Part shown: positions 9,541 to 63,444 of the stretch, piece after piece | How the letters are laid out: the number at the start of each line of letters is the position of its first letter | How positions within the stretch are numbered: position 1 is the first letter of the stretch | DNA from: Spraguea lophii | Lineage: Eukaryota; Microsporidia; Spragueidae | Length of the DNA: 64,000 nucleotides | Direction: 5' to 3' | Assembly (NCBI GenBank): GCA_001887945.1 | Contig: LDOQ01000051.1 | Location: 85,474-149,473 of the forward strand | Made by a program: the position numbers and the translations under genes | Notes under the pieces: model-generated | Database searches by the model: none | The model's input: the letters and a program-made list of their open reading frames with translations, nothing else | Told to the model about the DNA's origin: nothing

Positions 9541-9554
9541 TCGAATTTTTCTAA
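9541..9554. repeat. Target-site duplication, left copy
   Basis: TCGAATTTTTCTAA, repeated exactly at 10047-10060 on the other side of the SINE. A 14 bp duplication is typical of LINE-type target-primed insertion. Confidence 0.9.
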
Positions 9555-10046
9555 TTTTTTTACGAATGAAACTTTTATTTATCAAAGCTTCCTGGCCGGT
9601 TGCGGCCTACCATGGTCTGTGACCTTCGGTTCCTCGAGCGAAATTAAACTTGTACTAACTGGTTTCGCTACAGATATGCATTAATCTCATCTTACCTTAT
9701 GCTCCAGAGTGTTAGGATTTTGCGTCTGGTGCGCGTCGCCGCCCCCACTTCCAGCTCTTAAGGAATTCCCAGCCTCTTTCGTTGCATAGTATTGGCCGAG
9801 TCACAAATCAATACAGGGATTGCAACTACATCAGCTGAACATTACTTTAATCTAGTAGCGGGGCCGTCATACAAGACACAGCTATGCTGCGCTATCGAAA
9901 CCTCACCCACTCAACAACCTTTTTCTTCTCTTCTGCGTTTATTATTATTATTTTTTTTTTTTTGAAAATTTTTTCTGGATGAGGGATTCGAACCCGCCAG
10001 GCTTGGGGTTTGGTTACCACCCCACGACCACTGGGCCAGGCGGGAC
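9555..10046 (-). mobile_element. tRNA-derived SINE, full-length young copy
   Basis: 492 bp. On the reverse strand it opens with a tRNA-like head starting GTCCCGCC. Box A (TGGCCCAGTGG, element bases 9-19) and box B (GGTTCGAATCC, bases 53-63) sit at real-tRNA spacing, so internal Pol III transcription is expected. A body of about 400 bp unrelated to tRNA follows, ending in GTTTCATTCGT and a short A run. It is about half GC in a 20% GC setting and nearly identical to the copy at 59241. Exact 14 bp duplications flank it. It encodes no protein and would need a LINE in trans. Confidence 0.92.
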
Positions 10047-10060
10047 TCGAATTTTTCTAA
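10047..10060. repeat. Target-site duplication, right copy
   Basis: Exact repeat of 9541-9554, directly abutting the tRNA-like head of the SINE. Confidence 0.9.
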
Positions 10061-10910: not shown

Positions 10911-11376
10911 TCCGCTTGACCCGGTAATCGTGGGATGGTAACCAAATTCCAAACCTAGCAAATTTGAATCCTTCACACAGAAGAAATTTCAAAGAATTAA
11001 TAATAAAAGGTAGGAAAGAAAAGTTGTTTAATGAGTGAAAGTTTGGTAGTGTAGCATTATCCATATCTTGTACAACAGCCCGCCACTGGATTAAAATAAT
11101 GTTTAGTTGGTATAATTGCAATCCCTGTATTGATTTGTGACTCAGTCAATACGATATCAGAAAGATGTTAGAAATTTTTAAGAAATTAGGAGGGGGAAAT
11201 ACATTATACGCAAACTCCTAATCCTCTAAAACTCAAGGTAAGATGGAATTAATGTATATATGCAATGAAATTAGTTAATACAAGTTTGAATATACTTCAG
11301 GAACAAAAAATCATAAACCACTGTAAGTCACAACCGGTGAGGAAACTTGTATAAATAAAAGTTTCATTAAAAAAAT
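10911..11376 (+). mobile_element. tRNA-derived SINE, old degenerate copy
   Basis: Full-length layout with many substitutions: a head with GGGATGGTAACC and a decayed box B (TTTGAATCC), then the body, ending in AAGTTTCATT plus an A run. It corresponds to the SINE at 61627-62100 in the other duplicate, with shared flanks, so it was inserted before the duplication. GC has dropped towards the genome average. Confidence 0.8.
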
Positions 11377-11671: not shown

Positions 11672-12634
11672 TTATTCACTTCCCCCTATCTTTCTCTTTA
11701 TTTTATTGAGAAATTTTCTTTTTAGTTTGGCTAATTTCGATTTACTGTGCGCATTCATGTCGGATCGAATATCCGTTTTATTAACGTTTTGCACTTTTGG
11801 CATTGTATGCTTCTCATCTTTATTTGTAGTATCAATTGATAAATTGTCTTTAGAACAATCCTGGTCGTCTTCAGCTGTCTGTAGTTTACAATTTGTAGCA
11901 TTTTTTTGTTCTTCTTTAGCTTTAATGCATTCATTTATTAATTCTATGGTAAGTGTACTACCATCTACTCTGCATTCTTGCAAGATATTAAGATGTGATA
12001 TGCTATAACATTTAATTTCATTTTGAAATTTCAAATTATATATTTTTAGTCGTCGAAAATCTTTATAACTTTTTTCATGCTGAGTAGATGAATATACTGA
12101 TATTCGCATAAGTTCCCATGTAATGTTTTTTTCATCCGGTTTGTTTATATTTGAATACCCGTCATAGTTAGTGTTTTCATATCCATCACCATCAACTTTT
12201 ACATAAAAACCAATAATGTATATTTCTCTAGATAATATATCTTCAATCGTATAACTATCACTACTCAAATCCCCTTTTATTATTTTTTTTTCTTCTCTGT
12301 TACTCAATGGATCTATTGATGTATGAACAAATAATATTCCAGTAACTATAGATTCTAATATATTCTCTCTATTAATATCGCAATTTTCATTATCTTCTAG
12401 AAGTATTCCTATCACAGAAAAATCGGTGTTCGTCCTGTTTATTGATTTCCTTGGCCCATCAAAGTTTATTTTATAACCAGAAAGATTATATATATTTCCT
12501 CTCCAATCTTCTCCCATTAATACTATGTTTTGTGTTTTATCATTTCCAGCATTTTTCATATTACTAAAATATGAATTCTTATGAACAAGATAATTTGAAA
12601 TTAAAAAGTTAAAAAATAGCAAATTGAAAAACAT
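11672..12634 (-). CDS. Lineage-specific putative secreted protein, family A (intact)
   Basis: 320 residues with an N-terminal hydrophobic leader (about 1-16), an acidic mixed middle and a strongly basic C-terminal tail (about 300-318). Only three cysteines or so lie beyond the leader. I recognise no domain. Its paralogue at 60748 shares about 150 N-terminal residues, including NIVLMGE, CDINRENILESIV and YTIEDILSREI, then is cut off by a SINE. CCCC directly abuts the ATG on the coding strand. A leader, a fast-evolving paralogous family and a repeat-rich setting fit a secreted host-facing protein, but that role is inference. Confidence 0.72.
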   Translation of the reverse strand: MFFNLLFFNFLISNYLVHKNSYFSNMKNAGNDKTQNIVLMGEDWRGNIYNLSGYKINFDGPRKSINRTNTDFSVIGILLEDNENCDINRENILESIVTGILFVHTSIDPLSNREEKKIIKGDLSSDSYTIEDILSREIYIIGFYVKVDGDGYENTNYDGYSNINKPDEKNITWELMRISVYSSTQHEKSYKDFRRLKIYNLKFQNEIKCYSISHLNILQECRVDGSTLTIELINECIKAKEEQKNATNCKLQTAEDDQDCSKDNLSIDTTNKDEKHTMPKVQNVNKTDIRSDMNAHSKSKLAKLKRKFLNKIKRKIGGSE

Positions 12635-12829: not shown

Positions 12830-13302
12830 TCCGCTGTCCGAGTGGTCGTGGGGTAGTAATCAAATCTCGGCCGGCAGGTTCGAATCCCTGCGCTCGGGAG
12901 AATTTTCAAAAAAATAATAATAAAGGATAGAAAAGAAAGGTTGTCGAGTGGGCGGGGTTTGATAACGCAGCATTAATTGTGCTTGTATGACAAGCTCCTT
13001 TATTAGAATAAGTAGCGTTTGGCCTGTGTAATAGTAATCCCTGGGTTGATTTATGACTCGCCTAATACTATACCAAGAAAGAAGTTGACAATTTCTAAAA
13101 AGGTGTGAGTGCCAGCGCTGTGCACCATACACAAAATTCTAGCACTCTATAGCATAATATAAGATAAGATTACTGCATATCTGTAGTGAAGTCGGTTCGT
13201 ACAAACTTAGATATGCTTTAAGAACCAAAGGCTATAGTCCATGGCAAGCCCCAACCGGCCAGGAGACTTCTATAAATAAAAGTCATATTAATAAAAAAAT
13301 TA
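12830..13302 (+). mobile_element. tRNA-derived SINE, full-length divergent copy
   Basis: The head reads TGTCCGAGTGG (box A, one mismatch) and GGTTCGAATCC (perfect box B), then the same body and A-rich 3' end as the other copies. It is clearly diverged from the copies at 9.5 and 59 kb and may represent an older subfamily. A 13 bp target-site duplication flanks it. It lies upstream of family A and is missing from the equivalent site in the other duplicate. Confidence 0.88.
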
Positions 13303-14967: not shown

Positions 14968-15734
14968 TTAGAGTTGAATGTCTGTTTATATGTTTATAAT
15001 AATATTGGTATAATTGTACTTTTATATAACATTTTATCATAATAAAATTTTTCGATATTGTGATTATTTTCTTGACTTTATATTATTTTCTGTAATGTTT
15101 TTCGGAAAGATTTTGTATTTCCTTTACAGTTTTTGGTATATAAAAAGCAGAAAAAGTGTGCCATATATGGAAATAATAATTGAAGGAATTTACATATAAT
15201 ATATAAAATGAATTATTTATGCATTGTTTAAAATATTTGTAAATAGATATTACCATTTTATATATAAGTTATCATTACTGTTTTAATGCATTGATCGATT
15301 GCTAGATGAAAAAATAATTACATGGAATCAATGATATAATAGCCACCAAGTTTTAAAATATTTGGTTATTAATATTCAAATAATTATGGATATAAAATTA
15401 TTGTGATGCCATAATATTCTGTGACTGGAAAAATCACATTATTAATCCAAATAATGTTTATTGGGTCTGTGACTTTATTTTAATTATTGATTCCTGTATG
15501 GTATAATTGAGGATATGAATTTCAAAGAAGTAATGAGAACAAAATGTGTCTTATGCACAAAATTTCGATATTTGGAATATAAAGTAAGATAGGCCTGATA
15601 TATTTATCATAAAACTATGTATATATATCATTTCAGAATCCTAAAGTCATAGGCTACATTAAATTAAACTGATTAAAAAATTTATATAAATAAAATTTTC
15701 ACAAAAAAAAAATTTCATATTATGGAAATTTATT
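14968..15734. other. Intergenic with SINE fossil
   Basis: About 770 bases. The right-hand part (about 15465-15712) is a degenerate SINE. No gene seen. Confidence 0.55.
15465..15712 (+). repeat. SINE fossil, 3' half
   Basis: Ordered matches to the SINE body in plus orientation: GATTCCTGTATGGTATAATT (the copies' CAATCCCTGTATTGATT region, rearranged), AAAGTAAGATAGG, CATAGGCTACA, and the tail TTTATATAAATAAAATTTTC before an A run. Heavily substituted towards AT. Confidence 0.55.
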
Positions 15735-21433: not shown

Positions 21434-24400
21434 TAAAGAATAAAAAATCAATATGAAAATATATTATATTTATATTATTTTCTATTTTAACATCAATGTT
21501 TAACAAGATAAAGAAATATTTTTAATAAAAATAAATGTTATAAATGAAGATACATAAAATAACTTTATTGTCATACTTATTAAAATACGTGTTAATTTAA
21601 AAATTTATTTTATATTTAATGAGAAAATTAAAACAATATTTTCTGTTTAAAAGTTATATAATCAATCTATTAAAATGAAATAGGATTATTTTTAACTACG
21701 AATATACATAATAACTTATATAAATAAAATTAATATTTTATTTTAAAAAAAATTCTATATGTTTTTGAAAAAAGAAATTTCTTTATATATTTTTTTGCTT
21801 TTAATTATAACACTTTACTTGCTGTAAATATATCATGATGAATTGAAAACTGAAATTACATATTAATTTATTTTATAAAAATTTCTGTTTTCTATTATTC
21901 ACAAATGCATCTATTTTTTTAAAGATAAATATCTAATTATTAGAAATTTTTAAAAAGAAGTGGTCGGATATTTTGTTCAATTTTTTAATAATAAAGTTGT
22001 AATTATACCTAAAGTGCTTCGTATCTATTGCCACACCAAGATCTGTGATCTTTTGTCCTTAAAACAAACAATAAGAATATATATTGATTGGTTTCATTAT
22101 ATATACTTCCAATTTCATTTCAACTTATGTTTCAAAATATTGGGTTTATTCATAATACATACAACTTTCCACCGCCATTTTGATGCGATGCTAATCTCTT
22201 TATTGGCATAATATTGTTGGGCTTACAGACTAATGATAAAGTTATAATTATATTCATAATTTTTATTTTAATTATTATGACTTTCGTGTAAAGCAAATAT
22301 GGTTATTTTGTTGATTCATAACGCACTTGATTCTTTCTATTTCATATACTTTATTATCTTTTGCTTTAAAAATATTTTTTATGTGAAAACTTCGAATTAT
22401 ATAACATTATAACTTTAATGCTATCTCAATATCATTGAGTTATGTTAATATATAAAAATATAACTTAAATTCTTTTTTTATGTATATAATAATGTCTATT
22501 ATAAATATATTTGGCTTTATAGTTTTTATGAGGAAGTGCTTGGTTAAGCTATATATTATTCGTAAAATTCATAGAATGGAAATAAATCTCAAAAACTTTA
22601 CTATTTATTTAAAAATATAACTTTCTTTATCTTTATAATATTATATATTTAAAAATTTTACGTCCTATTATTATGTTAAAAATATTTTTTTTATAAAATT
22701 GCATATTTTCATAATCTTTATCTGAAACTACATACTGTATAGTTAAAATAACTTTTATTGAGTGTTTTGGATTATTTGATTATCTTTGTTTTATTACATC
22801 TAATTTTTTATTTATTCTTGAAAAGTTATGAAAATTATTTGAAAATAAATAATTCCGAGATCTTTTATTCCCCTTTGATATCTTTGTAATTACTTTATAT
22901 TAGTAGAATTATACATATCACTTTAAAATATGTCATAAAATTTCCTTTTAATATAATATTATGTCTCGTAATGAACATTTTTATTTATATATTAAAATTT
23001 TCTTATTGTTTATAAAGATTAATATGTTTTACTTTATAACACCAAAATTATTTATTTAATAAACAATGATATAATCAAAACAAATTTTATGTATAATGAA
23101 TTTTAATTAATCCTTATATGGAAATTAGTATATATATTTACTTTAATGGGTTTAATTAAATTTTTTACTTTATTGTAATAAATTCAATTAATTATTTAAT
23201 AAATAATTCTATTTATATTAAGGAAATTGAAAATATTTATTTTTCTGAAGTTTATATAAAGTCTAGATTTGATATTATTTTAATTGTATTTGAACATACT
23301 AATGTTAATTATGATATTTTTTATATTCTTTTTGATGGTTTAAATAAATATTTAATAATATTTTATATTATTTTACATTTTTCTTTTTTTAAAATCTAAT
23401 AAATTTATCAAATATGAAAAAATTAGATAAGTTATTATCAAATAAGAAACATTTTTATTTTCAAAAAAAAATATTTTCATTATTTTTTTATAACCTGTCA
23501 TATTTAATTATTGTCTTATCAAAAAAAAAATGAAAAAAATAATTTCAAAAAAAACCTTATATCCCATGTTAAACTTTACTTATTCATTACTCTTTAAAAT
23601 TGAGAAGGTTATCGATGAGATATGATCAATATAATCATAAGAGAAGAGTAAAACCAATATTTTATGTAGTTTATAGATACCAGAAAGCAGGCAAAGAAAT
23701 TTGATTAAATATAATGTATTATAGTAAACCTATGTGGAAAATTTACTATTTAATCGATATAGATTTTATGTTAAGAAGTAACACGCTGAATAAATCAGTT
23801 ATAAGAAAAAAAGACGAAAGAAAAATTATATATGGTGAAATTGGTTTTTTGTAAAACCTAATCGATTGTAAAAGGAATTAAAACCTTATAGACATTTTTA
23901 TTAGATAATAATCTTTTAAACCATTTATTATATTGATGTATTGGTTATGTTTGTGAACATAATATTAGTTATTATTTAAATATGTCCTCATAGTGATATC
24001 GAAAGTATCAAGATATTATACAAATTTTATCATGATGTTCAATTAATAAAAACGATAGAATTAAACGTATATTCATTATTACATGAATATCTTAAAACCC
24101 AATAATTATATATTATTGGGATTGTTCGATATATACATATATTAATTTTTAAATTATATTTTCACTAATGAAAAAAACATTTAAAAGTAAAATATTAGTT
24201 CAAAATGATTTAGTAAATCAAATAATAAACTTAATATATTGGGTTCGAGAAAATAATATCGAGAATTCTTATTTTTTGTTACCGTGTTAATTATACGACC
24301 TGCCATTGAAAGCATATTTATATGGCTACAGCATTTGTGTATTATACAATACATAATATTATTTAACGTAATATTAAGATCGAAATGGTTTTGTTTTGTT

Positions 24401-26524: not shown

Positions 26525-26990
26525 TTTTTTAATGAAACTTTTATTTATAGAGTTTTCTGGCATTTGTAACTTGCTATGGTCTATAACTTTTGGTTCATAA
26601 AGTACATTTAAACTTGTATTAACTGATTTCGTTGCAATATGCTAATCTTATCTCACTTTGTGTTCCCAAATCGGCGGGGGTTTTGTATATGCTACACATC
26701 ACCATCTCCTCTAGAATTTTTAAAGATTCCCTATCTTTTCTTGATCTAATAATATAAATTTATGAATCAATACAGGAATTACAATTACATCAGCTAACCA
26801 TCATTTTAACCTAGTAATAGGCCGTCATAGAAAGCATAGATAATGCTACATTGTCGAACCCTCACCCATTCAACAACTTTTCTCTGTTACCTTTTATTCT
26901 TTTTTTTTTGAAATTTCTTCAAGGGGAAGGATTCGAACCGCTAGGCTTGGTACTTGGTTACCATCCTACGACCATTATGCTAAACGAACT
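26525..26990 (-). mobile_element. tRNA-derived SINE, old full-length copy
   Basis: Complete layout with many changes. The 3' end is AATGAAACTTTTATTTATAG and the body includes CTATGGTCTATAACTTTTGG and GAATCAATACAGG. On the minus strand the head keeps box B as GGTTCGAATCC and GGATGGTAACC, while box A is decayed. A run resembling TTACTTTTT occurs on both sides and may be the remains of a target-site duplication. Confidence 0.8.
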
Positions 26991-34251: not shown

Positions 34252-35060
34252 CGTTGAATATCAATAAAATAATTTTAAGCAAATTATTCCAAATAATGCT
34301 GATTATTTATTCTCAAAAGATTCTTATTCTTTGATGTTTATTATTTCTGAAATTTATTTTAAATTCAATAATAATTATTTTAAAAAAAATTATATTTTAT
34401 CATAAAGAATATTTTCATATTTTAATAAAAATAAAAGATGGTCATTTAAATGTTTAAGTCATAGAAATATTTTTATTATCTTTGGATTTATTTTGGTTAA
34501 ATTTAGAAGGTTTTTTGTTATAAGATTTTAATTATCACGACAAATAACTGTATATTTATATTTTGAAATAACTTGAAGTCATTGATTTAATAAAAATATG
34601 TAATGTTTGTACCATTTAATTCCATTGCATATATACATTAATTCAGCGTATTCTATAATTCATCATTTTATATATTTTTATACGTGCATTTATTATTCTT
34701 TTAATTTTAACGAGATTTTAATCAATTTCTTGGAGTAATATTTATCAAATCACAAAATCAATACAGGAATTATAACCACATTAACCAAACATTACTCTGT
34801 CAAAATAATAGTATTTCCGTAAAAGAAGTATATTGAATATATTATCAAATCTTCTCAATTATACATCTTATATTTCTATTTAATATAATTATATTTTTAA
34901 CATAATTATTTGGAAGAAAGATTGGAAGCATTGCTTTTGGAACTTAGCTATCATTTTATAAACAATTGTTTTTTTAAATATAATCTCATTAAAATTTATT
35001 ATTTAAAACTTTCTATTTTTAAATTATTCTTTATACGGTATTATATAATTATTACATATC
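34252..35060. other. Intergenic with SINE fragment
   Basis: About 800 AT-rich bases. A partial SINE fossil lies near 34735-34860. Otherwise empty. Confidence 0.55.
34735..34860 (-). repeat. SINE fossil fragment
   Basis: AAAATCAATACAGGAATTAT, then AACCACATTAACCAAACATTA, match the mid-body of the young SINE (ACAAATCAATACAGGGATTG and the ensuing CAACTACATCAGCT). Ends are unclear. Confidence 0.6.
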
Positions 35061-35096: not shown

Positions 35097-35537
35097 ATCC
35101 ATTTAATTGTGTGGTTGTAAGATGGTAACCAAATCCCTCGTCTAGAAAGATTTTCAAAAAAAGGAGTAAAACGTAGAAAAGAAAGGTTATTGAGTGGATG
35201 AAAGTTCGATAGTGTAGTATTAGTCGTGACCTGTATGGCGGTCGTATTATTAGATTAAAGTAGTGTTTAGCTAGCGCAATTACAATCCTTGTATTGATTT
35301 ATAAATTTATATTACTATACCAAAAAAAAGTTAGGAATCTCATTAATGATGATAGAATGACGATTACACCATATGTAAATCCTACTGTTCCAAAGCATAA
35401 GATAAGACGAGATTAATGCATATATGTAGCGAAACCAGCCAATACAGGTTTAGATGTTCTTTAGGAACCAAAAGTTATAGACCACAGTAAGTCATAACCA
35501 CACGAAAAACTTCTATAAATAAAGTTCACATAAAAAA
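35097..35537 (+). mobile_element. tRNA-derived SINE, old full-length copy
   Basis: The head keeps TGTGGTTGTAAGATGGTAAC (decayed box A region) but box B is lost. The body keeps GAAAGGTTATTGAGTGG, AGGAACCAAAAGTTATAGAC and TAAGATAAGACGAGATTAAT in the right order, ending in TTCTATAAATAAAGTTCA and an A-rich run. Confidence 0.78.
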
Positions 35538-42315: not shown

Positions 42316-43492
42316 TTATGATATAGGGATACTACAAAAAAATTGAAAGATAAATAAAAATAATCATCAAAAGTTTATTATATTTTTTGGTGGTTTAATA
42401 AGTTTCTTAGACGAAGAAATATTATATACAGATTAATATATATTTATCATATCTTTTATAATTATGATTTACTTTTCGTTAGAGAAATAATTTACCATCT
42501 TTATATAAATGGAATATTATATATTTATTACTTGTTTTATGTGCTGGATTTGTTGATGGTATTATTATCCAACAATTTTATTTATTTTTCTATCTTTTCG
42601 TAATATCTCGGTATTAAACAAAAGAAGAGAATAAATATTTGAAATAATATCTTTTGAAGTCACGAGTTTTAATCCTTCTAAATCAAAATCAACTAGATCG
42701 CAATGATGTTATAATGTATGCTTCTGTCCAGTTTTCTCATTAAATTAGAATAATATTTAGTCAGTTTTGTGGAAGAATTTGCATTGATTAATGACGTGCC
42801 CAATTCTAATACCATATAAAAAAATTATGAATCCCAAAGAAGCATTAAGAGAACGTGAACTATACTTTAAATAATAACATTTTAAATCATAATATAAAAT
42901 GATTAATTACAATTATTGTATTATTCAACAAGTAAAATACAAGGAAACATCAACAATTAAATATCCATATCATCATTTTAAAAAGCTTATATAAGTAAAA
43001 TTTCTTTTTTTTTGAAATATCATATTATCTTTACATTTATTTTTTCCCGACAGTGTGATGGTTATATATTTTCAATAATTATCTCATATTAATCAAATTT
43101 TACAAATTACAATTATTATTCTTTTTAAACTTTATCAATGATTAAAAACAGGTTTTTAAATACAAGAATCACAGAAATATCTTCTTAAATTAAAAATATT
43201 AAAATTTCAATAATAACGAAATTCAGTGTTTCAACAACACTTCTATTTTTTTAATAAGATTTATTTTATAAGATATTTATATAACTATTTTTAAAATCTC
43301 AACAATAAAATATTAAACTATTATTTTGAAAATTTAAACTTTACAATAATTTTCAAACACATACAATTTTATTTGTTAATATAAAATAATAATTCAATAT
43401 CACAATCCAGTAACATAACATATTATCTAAATTAAATATTTTAATTAAAATATATTACACAATATATTATTATATTACGTTTATTACCCCTT
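42316..43492. other. Divergent intergenic region with SINE fossil
   Basis: About 1.2 kb between two divergent HIT genes. It carries a degenerate SINE at about 42655-43012. The rest is AT-rich and should contain both promoters. Confidence 0.55.
42655..43012 (+). repeat. SINE fossil between the HIT paralogues
   Basis: Decayed body in plus orientation. A box B trace (GAGTTTTAATCC) is followed by ATTAGAATAATATTTAGTCA (other copies: TTAGAATAAGTAGCGTTTGG) and GCATTGATTAATGACGTGCC (other copies: TGATTTATGACTCGCC). It ends near ATATAAGTAAAATTTC. Confidence 0.55.
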
Positions 43493-51736: not shown

Positions 51737-51965
51737 ATATATATTTAATATAAAATATAGAATTAGTAGAATCATTAAGAAGAGTTCAGAATAAAGGATA
51801 TTTAAGTAGAATCATTAAATTTTTGTTATTAAAATAAAATATATTTTTAAAAACAAAATATAATTATAAATATTATTGTTTCTTTTAAGTATCTTTAAGT
51901 AAACACGAATAAAAATAAGTATTGTTTTAGTTTTTATAAATATATTTTATTTTAATAAAAAAGTT
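51737..51965. other. Short intergenic region
   Basis: About 230 AT-rich bases between the end of Tah18 and the tRNA. The minus-strand tRNA ends at 51966, with a T-rich terminator-like run just downstream on its own strand. Confidence 0.5.
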
Positions 51966-52038
51966 CGCCTCGTGGGGGACTCGAACCCCCGACATTTCGG
52001 TTAAAAGCCGAACGCTCTACCGACTGAGCTAACGAGGC
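51966..52038 (-). tRNA. tRNA-Lys (anticodon UUU)
   Basis: 73 nt on the minus strand. The acceptor stem GCCTCGT pairs with ACGAGGC (7 bp), the D arm contains TTAGCTCAGTCGG, the anticodon loop reads CTTTTAA (anticodon TTT), and the T arm GGGGGTTCGAGTCCCCC forms a perfect stem. Box A and box B are both present. No intron and no encoded CCA. It lies about 80 bases upstream of AC40 on the opposite strand. Confidence 0.97.
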
Positions 52039-59240: not shown

Positions 59241-59739
59241 TTTTTTTTTACGAATGAAACTTTTATTTATCAAAGCTTCCTGGCCGGTTGCGGCCTACCA
59301 TGGTCTGTGACCTTCGGTTCCTCGAGCGACATTAAACTTGTACTAACTGGTTTCACTACAGATATGCATTAATCTCATCTTACCTTATGCTCCAGAGTGT
59401 TAGGATTTTGCGTATGGTGCGCGTCGCCGCCCCCACTTCCAGCTCTTAAGGAATTCCCAGCCTCTTTCGTTGCATAGTATTGGCCGAGTCACTAATCAAT
59501 ACAGGGATTGCAACTACATCAGCTAAACACTACTTTAATCTAGTAGCGGGGCCGTCGTACAAGGCACAGCTATGCTGCGCTATCGAAACCTCACCCACTC
59601 AACAACCTTTTTTTTTTTTCTCTTCTGCATTTATTATTATTATTTTTTTTTGTTTTGAAAACTTTTTCTGGATGAGGGATTCGAACCCGCCAGGCTTGGG
59701 GTTTGGTTACCACCCCACGACCACTGGGCCAGGCGGGAC
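59241..59739 (-). mobile_element. tRNA-derived SINE, full-length young copy in Merlin relic
   Basis: 499 bp, nearly identical to 9555-10046 apart from scattered substitutions and a longer T run. Box A (TGGCCCAGTGG) and box B (GGTTCGAATCC) are intact on the minus strand. Exact 14 bp target-site duplications flank it, and removing the element and one duplication rejoins the two Merlin pieces. Confidence 0.93.
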
Positions 59740-59753
59740 TAGTTATTTCAACA
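59740..59753. repeat. Target-site duplication, right copy
   Basis: Exact repeat of 59227-59240. Confidence 0.92.
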
Positions 59754-60747: not shown

Positions 60748-61218
60748 ATGTTTTTCAATTTGCTATTTCTCAATCTTTTAACATTAAAGCATTTTGACCA
60801 TAAGAATTTATATTTTAGCAATATCAAAAATGCCGAAAGTGATAGAACACAAAATATAGTATTAATGGGAGAAAATAGTAAAAGAAGTATATATGATCTT
60901 CATAACTACAAAACGGGATTTTATGATTGTAGTTGGGAATCAATGAATAGATCAAACGTTTACTTTTCTGTAAAAGGAATACTTCTAGAAAACGATGGAA
61001 ATTGTGATATTAATAGAGAGAATATATTAGAATCCATAGTTAGCGGAATATTATTTGTTCATATATCAATATGTCCATGGAATAACATCGAAGAAATAAA
61101 TATAATAAAAGGGGATTTGAGTAATGACAGATATACAATTGAAGATATATTATCTAGAGAAATAAAAATTGATAATTTTTATGTAAAAGTTAATAGTCAT
61201 TTTTTTTTTTACGAATGA
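60748..61218 (+). pseudogene. Family A gene truncated by SINE
   Basis: The first 150 or so codons match the family A gene at 12634, including the leader, CDINRENILESIV and YTIEDILSREI, and keep a CCC one base before the ATG. Homology stops at about 61197; the frame then runs into the SINE's T run and halts within a few codons at 61218. The 3' half (about 170 codons, including the basic tail) is missing. A short secreted product could still be made. Confidence 0.82.
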
Positions 61219-61437
61219 AACTTTTATTTATCAAAGCTTCCTGGCCGGTTGCGGCCTACCATGGTCTGTGACCTTCGGTTCCTCGAGCGACATTAAACTT
61301 GTACTAACTGGTTTCGCTACAGATATGCATTAATCTCATCTTACCTTATGCTCCAGAGTGTTAGGATTTTGCGTATGGTGCGCGTCGCCGCCCCCACTTC
61401 CAGCTCTTAAGGAATTCCCAGTCTCTTTCGTTGCATA
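61201..61437 (-). mobile_element. tRNA-derived SINE, 5'-truncated young copy
   Basis: Nearly identical to the 3' half of the copies at 9.5 and 59 kb, starting inside the body (GTTGCATA) so the tRNA-like head is missing. Truncation at the 5' end is usual in target-primed insertion. No target-site duplication is visible, which points to a rearrangement at this junction. Confidence 0.88.
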
Positions 61438-61439
61438 AT

Positions 61440-61626: not shown

Positions 61627-62100
61627 TTTTTTTATATAAAACTTTTATTTATTAAAATTATTCTGGCTGATCGCGACTTACCATGGCCTAATACCTTTGG
61701 TTCCTAAAGCACATCTACATTTGTATTAACCAGTTTCACCGCAAATATACCCAAATTTGATCTTATCTTATGCCCTAGAGCGTTGGGATTTTGCGTATGA
61801 TGCAATCATCATTCTATCATCATCAACGATATTCTCGACCTCTTTTTTGGGATAATATTGACCGAGTTACAAATCAATACAGGGATCGCAATTATACCAA
61901 TTAAACACTATTTTAATCTAGTAATAGAACCGTCATACAAGACATAACTAATGTTGCATTGTCGAACTCTCATTCACCCAACAACTTTTCTTTCCTATCT
62001 TTTATTTTGTTTCTTTGAAACTTCTCCTGGGTGAAGGGTTTGAATCTGTTAGGTTTTGACTTTGGGTACCATCCCACGACTGTCATGTTAAGCAAACTAT
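61627..62100 (-). mobile_element. tRNA-derived SINE, old copy shared with 10911-11376
   Basis: Full-length layout, decayed. The 3' end is AAAACTTTTATTTATTAAAA, the body has TTACCATGGCC and CAAATCAATACAGGGAT, and the head on the minus strand has GGGATGGTACCC and box B reduced to GATTCAAACCC. Its flank on the head side matches that of the old SINE in copy A, so the insertion came before the duplication. Confidence 0.82.
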
Positions 62101-62833: not shown

Positions 62834-63246
62834 AAAATATTCTGGTAAGCAGTAAAGTTTATTTTTAAACGGATTTTTTAATATGGTTTATTTTTTGTTT
62901 TTATAAAAAATCAGGTAGATTTGTTCAAAATATTTAATCATCAATAATATTTAATTTTAATGTTTCGGCAAGGTTAATAATAGTTTGTTCAAAAATATTA
63001 TTTAAAACATTAATTTATCAAATAAACTTTTATTTATTCTTATTTAAGGTTTTAGAATAATATATTAATATAATAATTAAAATTTTTAAAAATATATTAA
63101 ACTTCATAAAACGAACCCATCCACATATTTTGATCTTTTTCCTCATAACAGAATGATGTCTTCCAATTTTTAATTAGCTAATAAATAAGAAAACGATTTA
63201 ATTATAAAAGACATCGTGTTTCTTTTTAAGCAATATTTTTCATTCC
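62834..63246. other. Non-coding flank of the duplication
   Basis: About 410 bases. The first 330 or so align with the reverse strand of copy A (for example GTTTTAGAATAATATATTA and TTAAACTTCATAAAAC). No gene seen. Confidence 0.6.
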
Positions 63247-63260
63247 TGGTACAAGAGGAT
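63247..63260. repeat. Target-site duplication, left copy
   Basis: TGGTACAAGAGGAT, repeated exactly at 63445-63458 around a truncated SINE. Confidence 0.92.
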
Positions 63261-63444
63261 GACGTGCACCATACGCAAAATCCTAACACTCTGAAGCATA
63301 AGGTAAGATGAGATTAATGCATATCTGTGGTGAAACTAGTTGGTACAAGTTTGACTACGTTTTAAGAACAAATGATCATAGATCATTGTAGGTCATAACT
63401 GGCCAGAAAGTTTTAATAAATAAAAGTTTTATTAGTAAAAAAAA
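63261..63444 (+). mobile_element. tRNA-derived SINE, 5'-truncated copy
   Basis: 184 bp beginning at GACGTGCACCATACGCAAAA inside the SINE body and ending with TTTTATTAGT and an eight-A tail. It lacks the tRNA-like head but has exact 14 bp target-site duplications, the classic result of incomplete reverse transcription by LINE machinery. Confidence 0.9.

Follow-up and report, generated by a model that had tools for sequence, protein, structure and literature searches.

A probable LINE-mobilised SINE family of the microsporidian Spraguea lophii, with copies joined to tRNA and 5S genes

The stretch of Spraguea lophii DNA analysed here (64,000 nucleotides of contig LDOQ01000051.1, in the following called the window) raises the question to which kind of mobile element a repeat at its positions 9555-10047 belongs, how this element is multiplied and how some of its relatives came to lie directly behind tRNA and 5S genes. 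A reading of the sequence alone had described the repeat at 9555..10046 as a tRNA-derived SINE. The element was confirmed. This full-length young copy runs on the minus strand from a 5' end at 10047 and shows 99.4% identity to a consensus of 492 nt. Box A (TGGCCCAGTGG) occupies element bases 10-20 (10028-10038, minus strand) and box B (GGTTCGAATCC) element bases 54-64 (9984-9994, minus strand), both one base away from where they had been placed before (9-19 and 53-63). Near the 3' end a block at 9583-9662 (minus strand) is common to the 3' UTR of a LINE from the same genome, here named LINE-B (nhmmer against LINE-B 648-728, E 1.1e-6). It is followed by a terminal block at 9555-9582 (minus strand) that reads ATAAATAAAA...TTTC plus an oligo(A) tail, contains AATAAA and is also found at the 3' ends of LINE-B. 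As had been noticed already, the tail is short (9555-9561). The copy is flanked by an exact target-site duplication (TSD) of 13 bp, located at 9542-9554 on the SINE 3' side (12 of 13 bases recovered by TSD scoring) and at 10048-10060 on the 5' side.

Within the whole window a profile search yields 14 matches at E<=0.01 and none in the reversed window; together they make up 7.3% of its length. The earlier count of about 14 copies is reproduced as a number of profile matches, one of which (51933-51999) overlaps a tRNA-Lys gene, so that 13 SINE copies remain, the weakest with E 6e-4. Three of them are young, with 98.1-99.4% identity to the consensus and a GC content of 45-46%. Besides the copy under study these are a second full-length copy at 59243-59740 (minus strand, 98.1%, TSD TGTTGAAATAACT) and a 5'-truncated copy at 61204-61439 (minus strand) inside a protein gene. 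The ten old copies show 60-83% identity and 22-40% GC. On the plus strand they are located at 10912-11371 (74.8%), 12834-13295 (77.0%), 35109-35531 (74.4%) and, 5'-truncated, 63245-63439 (83.2%), on the minus strand at 26527-26986 (75.5%) and 61635-62081 (75.4%). Very old fragments are found at 22035-22396 (minus strand, 64.7%, E 2.5e-13), 34708-34953 (minus strand, 68.0%, E 1.7e-11) and 42729-42902 (plus strand, 60.0%, E 2.2e-7), and a weak one at 15545-15701 (plus strand, 63.2%). In all ten old copies C>T plus G>A changes exceed T>C plus A>G changes, in line with the proposed decay from near 50% GC towards the AT-rich background, and the two truncated copies bear out the claimed 5' truncation. 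A 156-aa frame at 60748-61218, with 68% identity over 133 residues to a 320-aa protein encoded at 11672-12634, ends within the tail sequence of the young truncated SINE; this paralogue is therefore broken. Another protein encoded in the window, a trehalose-phosphate synthase, shows 100% identity to the one from Spraguea lophii 42_110.

The suggested search of the genome with this copy covered 5.27 Mb in 73 contigs, which is incomplete if compared to the 5.77 Mb in 295 contigs given in the consulted part of PMC4948709. It revealed at least 40 full-length copies at 96-100% identity, the query included, and at least five shorter matches (40 of 457 candidates scored). A set of 35 young full-length copies (>93% identity, >470 nt) was drawn from 309 kb in 81 stretches, most of which were chosen for containing a SINE, so that the copy number there is no measure of density. 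The 5' end of these copies is fixed, their A tail is short and their flanks differ. From the consensus they diverge by a median of 1.0%, with at least one identical pair among them, which means that the family was recently active. Exact TSDs of 10-16 bp (median 14 bp) accompany 31 of the 35, which accords with the 13-14 bp expected beforehand, and 29 of 35 have a TSD score at or above the 99% point obtained with permuted flank pairs. The preference for the insertion point is mild: of 31 TSD-defined sites, 21 have T at position -1 relative to the first nick. One failure of TSD scoring concerns a copy on contig C1 whose flanks are swapped with those of a neighbouring inverted copy: at C1:142809-144271 two SINE copies in opposite orientation have exchanged their TSDs (GTATACACAATA and TTCATTGATT), which fits inversion of the intervening DNA by SINE-SINE recombination.

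Also old copies are informative. In 27 of them (E<=1e-8, >=150 nt, <93%; identities 63-90%) changes are shared that differ from simple decay, including C to A at 266 in 20 of 23 and G to T at 321 in 22 of 25, therefore earlier masters differed from the present one. Their majority sequence retains box A unchanged and box B with one different base. Taken together, the element is dispersed, short, non-coding and present in many copies, it carries boxes A and B, and it shows TSDs of the type left by target-primed reverse transcription (TPRT), 5' truncation and an oligo(A) end with a LINE-like 3' region. These properties support the earlier view of a SINE family with LINE-type mobilisation. In view of the constant 5' end and short A tail of the young copies and of the exact TSDs in most of them, we consider the element, with a probability of about 80%, as a SINE family of Spraguea lophii that is mobilised by a LINE via its LINE-B-like 3' end.

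The origin of the head is less distinct. Boxes A and B are spaced as in tRNA, and this part of the proposed tRNA derivation stands. A comparison with 45 of 58 tRNA-like genes of the genome (those below 80 nt, with the 13 longer ones left out) shows that, outside of the boxes, 77 of 200 box-keeping shuffles score as high as the head itself; if everything is shuffled none of 200 does. Among these 45 genes no parent tRNA could be identified. The covariance-model check proposed for the head turned out negative, as the Rfam tRNA model reports no match for the window copy, and with this model and the shuffle comparison neither a cloverleaf nor a named parent is detectable. The window copy gives a 13-nt T-arm match to tmRNA, which belongs to the same clan as tRNA (9.7 bits), and one old copy beside a tRNA-Asn gene reaches 13.4 bits in the T-arm only. 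Judged from the boxes, the head is a tRNA-type Pol III promoter, which probably descends from a tRNA.

Several SINE copies are joined to RNA genes. The genome contains at least 58 tRNA-like genes, 57 of them above the family cut-off (63 of 485 candidates scored), and their flanks were covered for at least 120 nt on both sides in all 58 and for 400 nt downstream in 45. Eight of the 58 are followed on the same strand by a SINE whose profile match starts 9-21 nt past the tRNA; the SINE itself begins at the T-run terminator or shortly behind it. These are the genes for Ala (C45), Leu (C43), Lys (C47), Asn (C40), Ile-aat (C33) and Ile-tat (C56) together with an Ile-gat-like gene (C52) and a Lys pseudogene (C29). 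The SINE is 5'-truncated in two of these eight cases, and of the tRNA copies seven remain above the family cut-off for tRNA (six high, one weakly). In addition, one of nine 5S genes (C31; nine 70-nt stretches searched) has a truncated SINE after its T-run (E 3e-4), the 3' part of which is recognisable farther on (72.1% over 104 nt). At the SINE density of the window 0.15 fusions to tRNA genes would be expected in same-strand windows of 25 nt and 0.17 with 5S genes included, corresponding to Poisson probabilities of 5e-12 and 3e-13 for the observed excess. No further SINE match at E<=0.01 lies within 50 nt on either side of the 58 tRNA-like genes, and tails of LINE-B or of a second LINE (LINE-A) occur near tRNAs only as two LINE-B matches at E<=0.05, both where SINE copies lie. 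Among the 35 young SINEs there is none that is fused to a tRNA or preceded by one in sense; a single copy (C16) has a tRNA-Arg gene within 150 nt that faces away. At least one U6 gene is also present in the genome (48 of 935 candidates scored).

All eight fused tRNAs belong to multi-copy families (assigned by hand from the anticodons), which comprise 27 of the 58 genes (P 0.0012; if the pseudogene is excluded, P 0.0025), and every family with a fused member retains a SINE-free copy. An identical paralogue exists for the fused Ala, Leu, Lys, Asn and Ile-tat genes (72/72, 83/83, 73/73, 74/74 and 117/117), and the SINEs beside these five show 68.6-91% identity to the consensus. The remaining ones differ from their paralogues (Ile-aat 72/74, Ile-gat-like 77/83, pseudo-Lys 58/73). 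The intact fused genes must have been kept by selection or gene conversion. The tRNA-Ile(TAT) gene at C56:81625-81741 equals that at C4:30880-30996 over 117 nt, intron included, and its SINE has decayed to 76%; the identity of this pair reflects either gene conversion or selection on the intron. In the case of tRNA-Asn on C40 about 1.3 kb of AT-rich DNA splits the SINE (locus L055 from about 1685); by eye, a part of this DNA reads like a putative helix-turn-helix transposase of the Tc1/mariner type.

How these pairs came about can be approached from their target sites. A SINE that jumped beside an existing tRNA gene should leave a duplication that repeats the tRNA end and T-run, whereas joint insertion of tRNA and SINE should place the duplication before the tRNA. 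Seven tRNA cases were compared in this respect (tRNA-Asn on C40 was left out). In an unconstrained search for a repeat around the whole unit none of 57 control upstream regions scores as high as C56 and four of 57 as high as C43, and for the remaining five fusions 20 to 54 of 57 controls do so. The repeat around tRNA and SINE on C56 matches in 13 of 15 positions (TACAAAACTTCTT vs TACAGAACTTCTT). A position-constrained, transition-tolerant test, which was devised post hoc after the sequences had been seen, gives a Fisher value of 0.011 for joint insertion over the seven cases, vs 0.38 for insertion at the junction. By site the values are 0.017 for C56 (the minimum possible with 57 controls), 0.034 for C43, 0.052 for C33, 0.14 for C45, 0.17 for C52 and, in the two old cases, 0.85 for C29 and 0.88 for C47. 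C43 carries little weight because its best repeat in the constrained test is a 9-mer in the A-rich tail, unlike its repeat in the earlier comparisons. A duplication around the whole tRNA-SINE unit is therefore clear for C56, suggestive at best for C43 and C33, and not significant for C45, C52, C29 and C47, and the reading as chimeras rests mostly on the one site C56. At the 5S gene on C31 an 8-nt match (TTTATAAA) between the upstream side and the SINE 3' side was seen by eye and is not included in any count.

The pairs fit what is known of chimeras in that a small RNA and a retroelement are joined in sense at the 3' end of the RNA, as seen here for eight of the 58 tRNA-like genes and for one 5S gene out of nine. 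We lean towards regarding them as chimeric retrocopies that were inserted as one unit. The competing explanation, which we hold to be less likely, is that the LINE machinery directed SINE insertion to the Pol III terminators of tRNA and 5S genes already in place and that only redundant genes tolerated this. It would account for the fact that the SINEs recur directly behind the T-run and in the same orientation, the restriction to multi-copy families would follow from selection, and targeting downstream of tRNA genes is known in dictyostelids according to the consulted part of PMC5911963. At the junction on C45 a repeat of 8 nt is possible, but 18 of 57 controls do as well. Against such targeting stand the duplications at the SINE junction, which in the post hoc test are no better than chance, and the location of the C56 repeat outside of the tRNA. 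Moreover, a T-run at the insertion point is absent from the 31 young sites defined by TSDs, and full-length and 5'-truncated SINEs both join at the same RNA end. Finally, the two lowest-scoring tRNA matches among the 58 (41.2 and 20.1 bits) are both SINE-fused, as expected of retrocopies left to decay. If the chimera reading is extended to its consequence, the SINE/LINE machinery acted as a gene-copying engine for Pol III genes in Spraguea, by which seven of 57 above-cut-off tRNA genes, a tRNA pseudogene and one 5S gene out of nine arose as chimeras and several were kept as working genes while the SINE decayed; for this we see chances only slightly better than even.

The next question concerns the LINE partner. 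The sequence-only reading reported that no LINE reverse transcriptase is visible in the window; this holds, and LINEs are present elsewhere in the genome. A search with RVT_1 gave nine matches, and four loci with long open frames were examined by Pfam scan. Two loci match RVT_1, one of which (L031) in contrast with the other (L033) also contains retroviral-type protease and RNase H domains; both are read by us as LTR elements. The Asn-rich gene at C2:65028-68276 encodes the reverse transcriptase of telomerase. Of the LINE-type frames found, the longest lies at the far end of the window's contig (C72:1-1646). It matches no Pfam family at 1e-3, yet it matches 20 database proteins, of which one is named LINE-1 reverse transcriptase-like and eight have precomputed endonuclease domains. 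This copy looks frameshifted because the adjoining stretch continues in another frame.

C21:1-2008 holds two LINE 3' ends in succession, namely LINE-A (1-1153) and LINE-B (1155-2008). With LINE-B at least 41 genome matches were obtained (40 of 109 candidates scored). Twenty-four of them are confined to bases 665-720 (84-86% over about 50-55 bp, E 4e-9 to 1.5e-8), and at least 13 of these 24 fall inside SINE copies that were seen independently. Among the other 17 matches 13 end at 851-856, within six bases of each other, which is the pattern of 5'-truncated LINE copies, and in six of the 17 the 5' side is less than 1 kb from a contig end, which suggests that the remainder of LINE-B is too repetitive for the assembly. 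An intact LINE-B was not seen, the copies nearest to full length being cut off 5' at contig ends, nor was a reverse transcriptase seen in the LINE-B copies examined. LINE copies at or near contig ends occur on C63, C11, C61, C27, C34, C21 and C72, and four of them (both ends of C63, C11 and C27) are cut 68 nt before one and the same LINE base. Such cuts correspond either to an assembly break in a young repeat or to subtelomeric LINEs.

When 16 LINE-B copies are aligned with the SINE, the rows that span the two blocks have both of them in common, including the terminal ATAAATAAA..TTTC..AAAAAAA; about 125 nt of LINE between the two blocks are missing from the SINE. The terminal block on its own is weak, as 28 of 2000 shuffles score as high. 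The proposed comparison of the last 50-100 bp with LINE 3' ends of the same genome thus yielded two blocks common to LINE-B, the inner one with E 4e-9 in the genome search, and the body of 400 bp that had been described as unrelated is present, except that its last ~90 nt resemble the LINE-B 3' UTR. A structural claim for two predicted hairpins in the LINE/SINE block was dropped, since no compensatory changes were noticed in the pair counts. From the shared 3' end we infer that LINE-B supplies the machinery for mobilisation of the SINE.

It is doubtful that the shared 3' blocks merely reflect common ancestry and that another LINE is the working partner, be it LINE-A or the element on C72, if this is a separate family. 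LINE-A also has a discrete 3' end (17 of 17 matches, query included, end at 1148-1153), the element on C72 has the longest LINE-type frame, and LINE-B has not revealed a reverse transcriptase of its own. On the other hand, of the two LINE 3' ends compared it is LINE-B that has sequence in common with the SINE. On C21 a piece of 198 nt (locus L048, 956-1153) ends in oligo(A) and has near-full matches starting from base 956 or 958 on C20, C47, C42 and C16; perhaps it represents a second SINE family that uses the LINE-A tail.

With LINE-B as the preferred partner the origin of the SINE itself can be considered. Acquisition from the fish host or another animal, which would explain the high GC content (46% in the young consensus vs 23% in the window), appears improbable to us, even if an exchange of transposons between microsporidia and animals is reported in the consulted part of PMC4202319. 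The 27 old copies speak for a long residence. A LINE with a related tail is present in the same genome and is GC-richer as well (0.37-0.55 over C21:1-2000). Furthermore, RNA genes are usually GC-richer than the AT-rich genome around them. Judged from their setting, the copies belong to parasite rather than host DNA: they are found among microsporidian genes, with AT-rich local TSDs and in part beside the parasite's own tRNA and 5S genes. A tandem or inverted-repeat origin was ruled out by TSDs, flanks and oligo(A) ends. That the repeats are parts of a DNA transposon or copies in segmental duplications, of which the window has some where several copies lie, is hardly credible in view of the oligo(A) 3' end, the variable 5' truncation, the contradicting pattern of TSDs of varying length, the differing flanks of young copies and the fact that the 5' end (AGTCCCGCC) and the 3' end do not form terminal inverted repeats.

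In a putative scheme of the SINE life cycle, drawn from its sequence features, Pol III would produce SINE RNA from boxes A and B, the RNA would be recognised through its LINE-B-like 3' end, and insertion would occur by TPRT with LINE-B proteins. Successive masters followed each other, the youngest of them recently. More likely than not, though with less assurance than for the SINE family itself, the reverse transcriptase copying SINE RNA would sometimes have switched to a nascent Pol III transcript at its U-tailed 3' end, or the two RNAs would have been ligated beforehand. The tRNA or 5S RNA and the SINE would then have entered the genome in a single insertion. Owing to the internal promoters of tRNA and 5S genes, such chimeric copies could function as genes immediately.

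Microsporidia are models of genome reduction. A recently active SINE that makes up about 7% of the window, together with a candidate partner LINE in a genome of 5 Mb, offers a small system for studying SINE-LINE parasitism. If the chimera reading is right, there is a direct route for tRNA and 5S genes to multiply and scatter, as a reverse-transcribed copy is at once a working gene by virtue of its internal promoter; this bears on the origin of dispersed tRNA families and on the birth of tRNA-headed SINEs. In agreement with the earlier suspicion of novelty, no description of a SINE in microsporidia was found among the papers listed by our searches of the open-licence literature, in which, according to titles, counts and abstract starts, the terms seem to co-occur only incidentally (e.g., PMC6416283, in part). 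Non-LTR elements of microsporidia are treated in PMC4202319 and PMC3486916, the main texts of which lack 'sine' at the start of a word. The consulted part of the S. lophii genome paper (PMC3749934) mentions transcripts of non-LTR retrotransposons and 53 tRNAs and lacks 'sine', as does that of PMC4405373 on Nosema MITEs. PMC4948709 gives a repeat content near 4%, with 'sine' at word start absent from its main text. A search of the open-licence literature for retroposed functional tRNA genes found no paper that combines all the terms used.

SINEs with a tRNA head and a LINE-derived 3' tail are known from eel (UnaSINE/UnaL2) and salmonids (HpaI/RSg-1). The Spraguea element resembles both in its 5' Pol III boxes, its body, a 3' end common to a LINE of the same genome, TSDs and 5' truncation. 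It differs from UnaSINE and HpaI in having no detectable cloverleaf or parent tRNA, in a tail that lacks about 125 nt of internal LINE sequence and in its occurrence in a microsporidian genome. As to the fusions, mammalian U6/L1 and related chimeras as presented in the consulted part of PMC13174262 likewise contain a small RNA in sense with a full-length or truncated retroelement and TSDs around the unit; template switching or RNA ligation is proposed there for sense chimeras. The same part describes 21 human tRNA/L1 chimeras, typically of half tRNAs and predominantly antisense. In contrast with these, Spraguea has eight whole tRNAs or tRNA-like copies in sense, joined past the T-run to a SINE, seven of them scoring as tRNA genes, with a clear TSD at one site only. 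The location downstream of tRNA genes is shared with Dictyostelium TRE3 (40-150 bp downstream, same orientation) and Skipper-2 (8-23 bp), as given in the portion of PMC5911963 drawn on here. Those are autonomous elements that target existing tRNA genes, whereas the Spraguea element is a SINE, its 35 young copies show no bias towards tRNA genes, and the repeat test leans to joint insertion.
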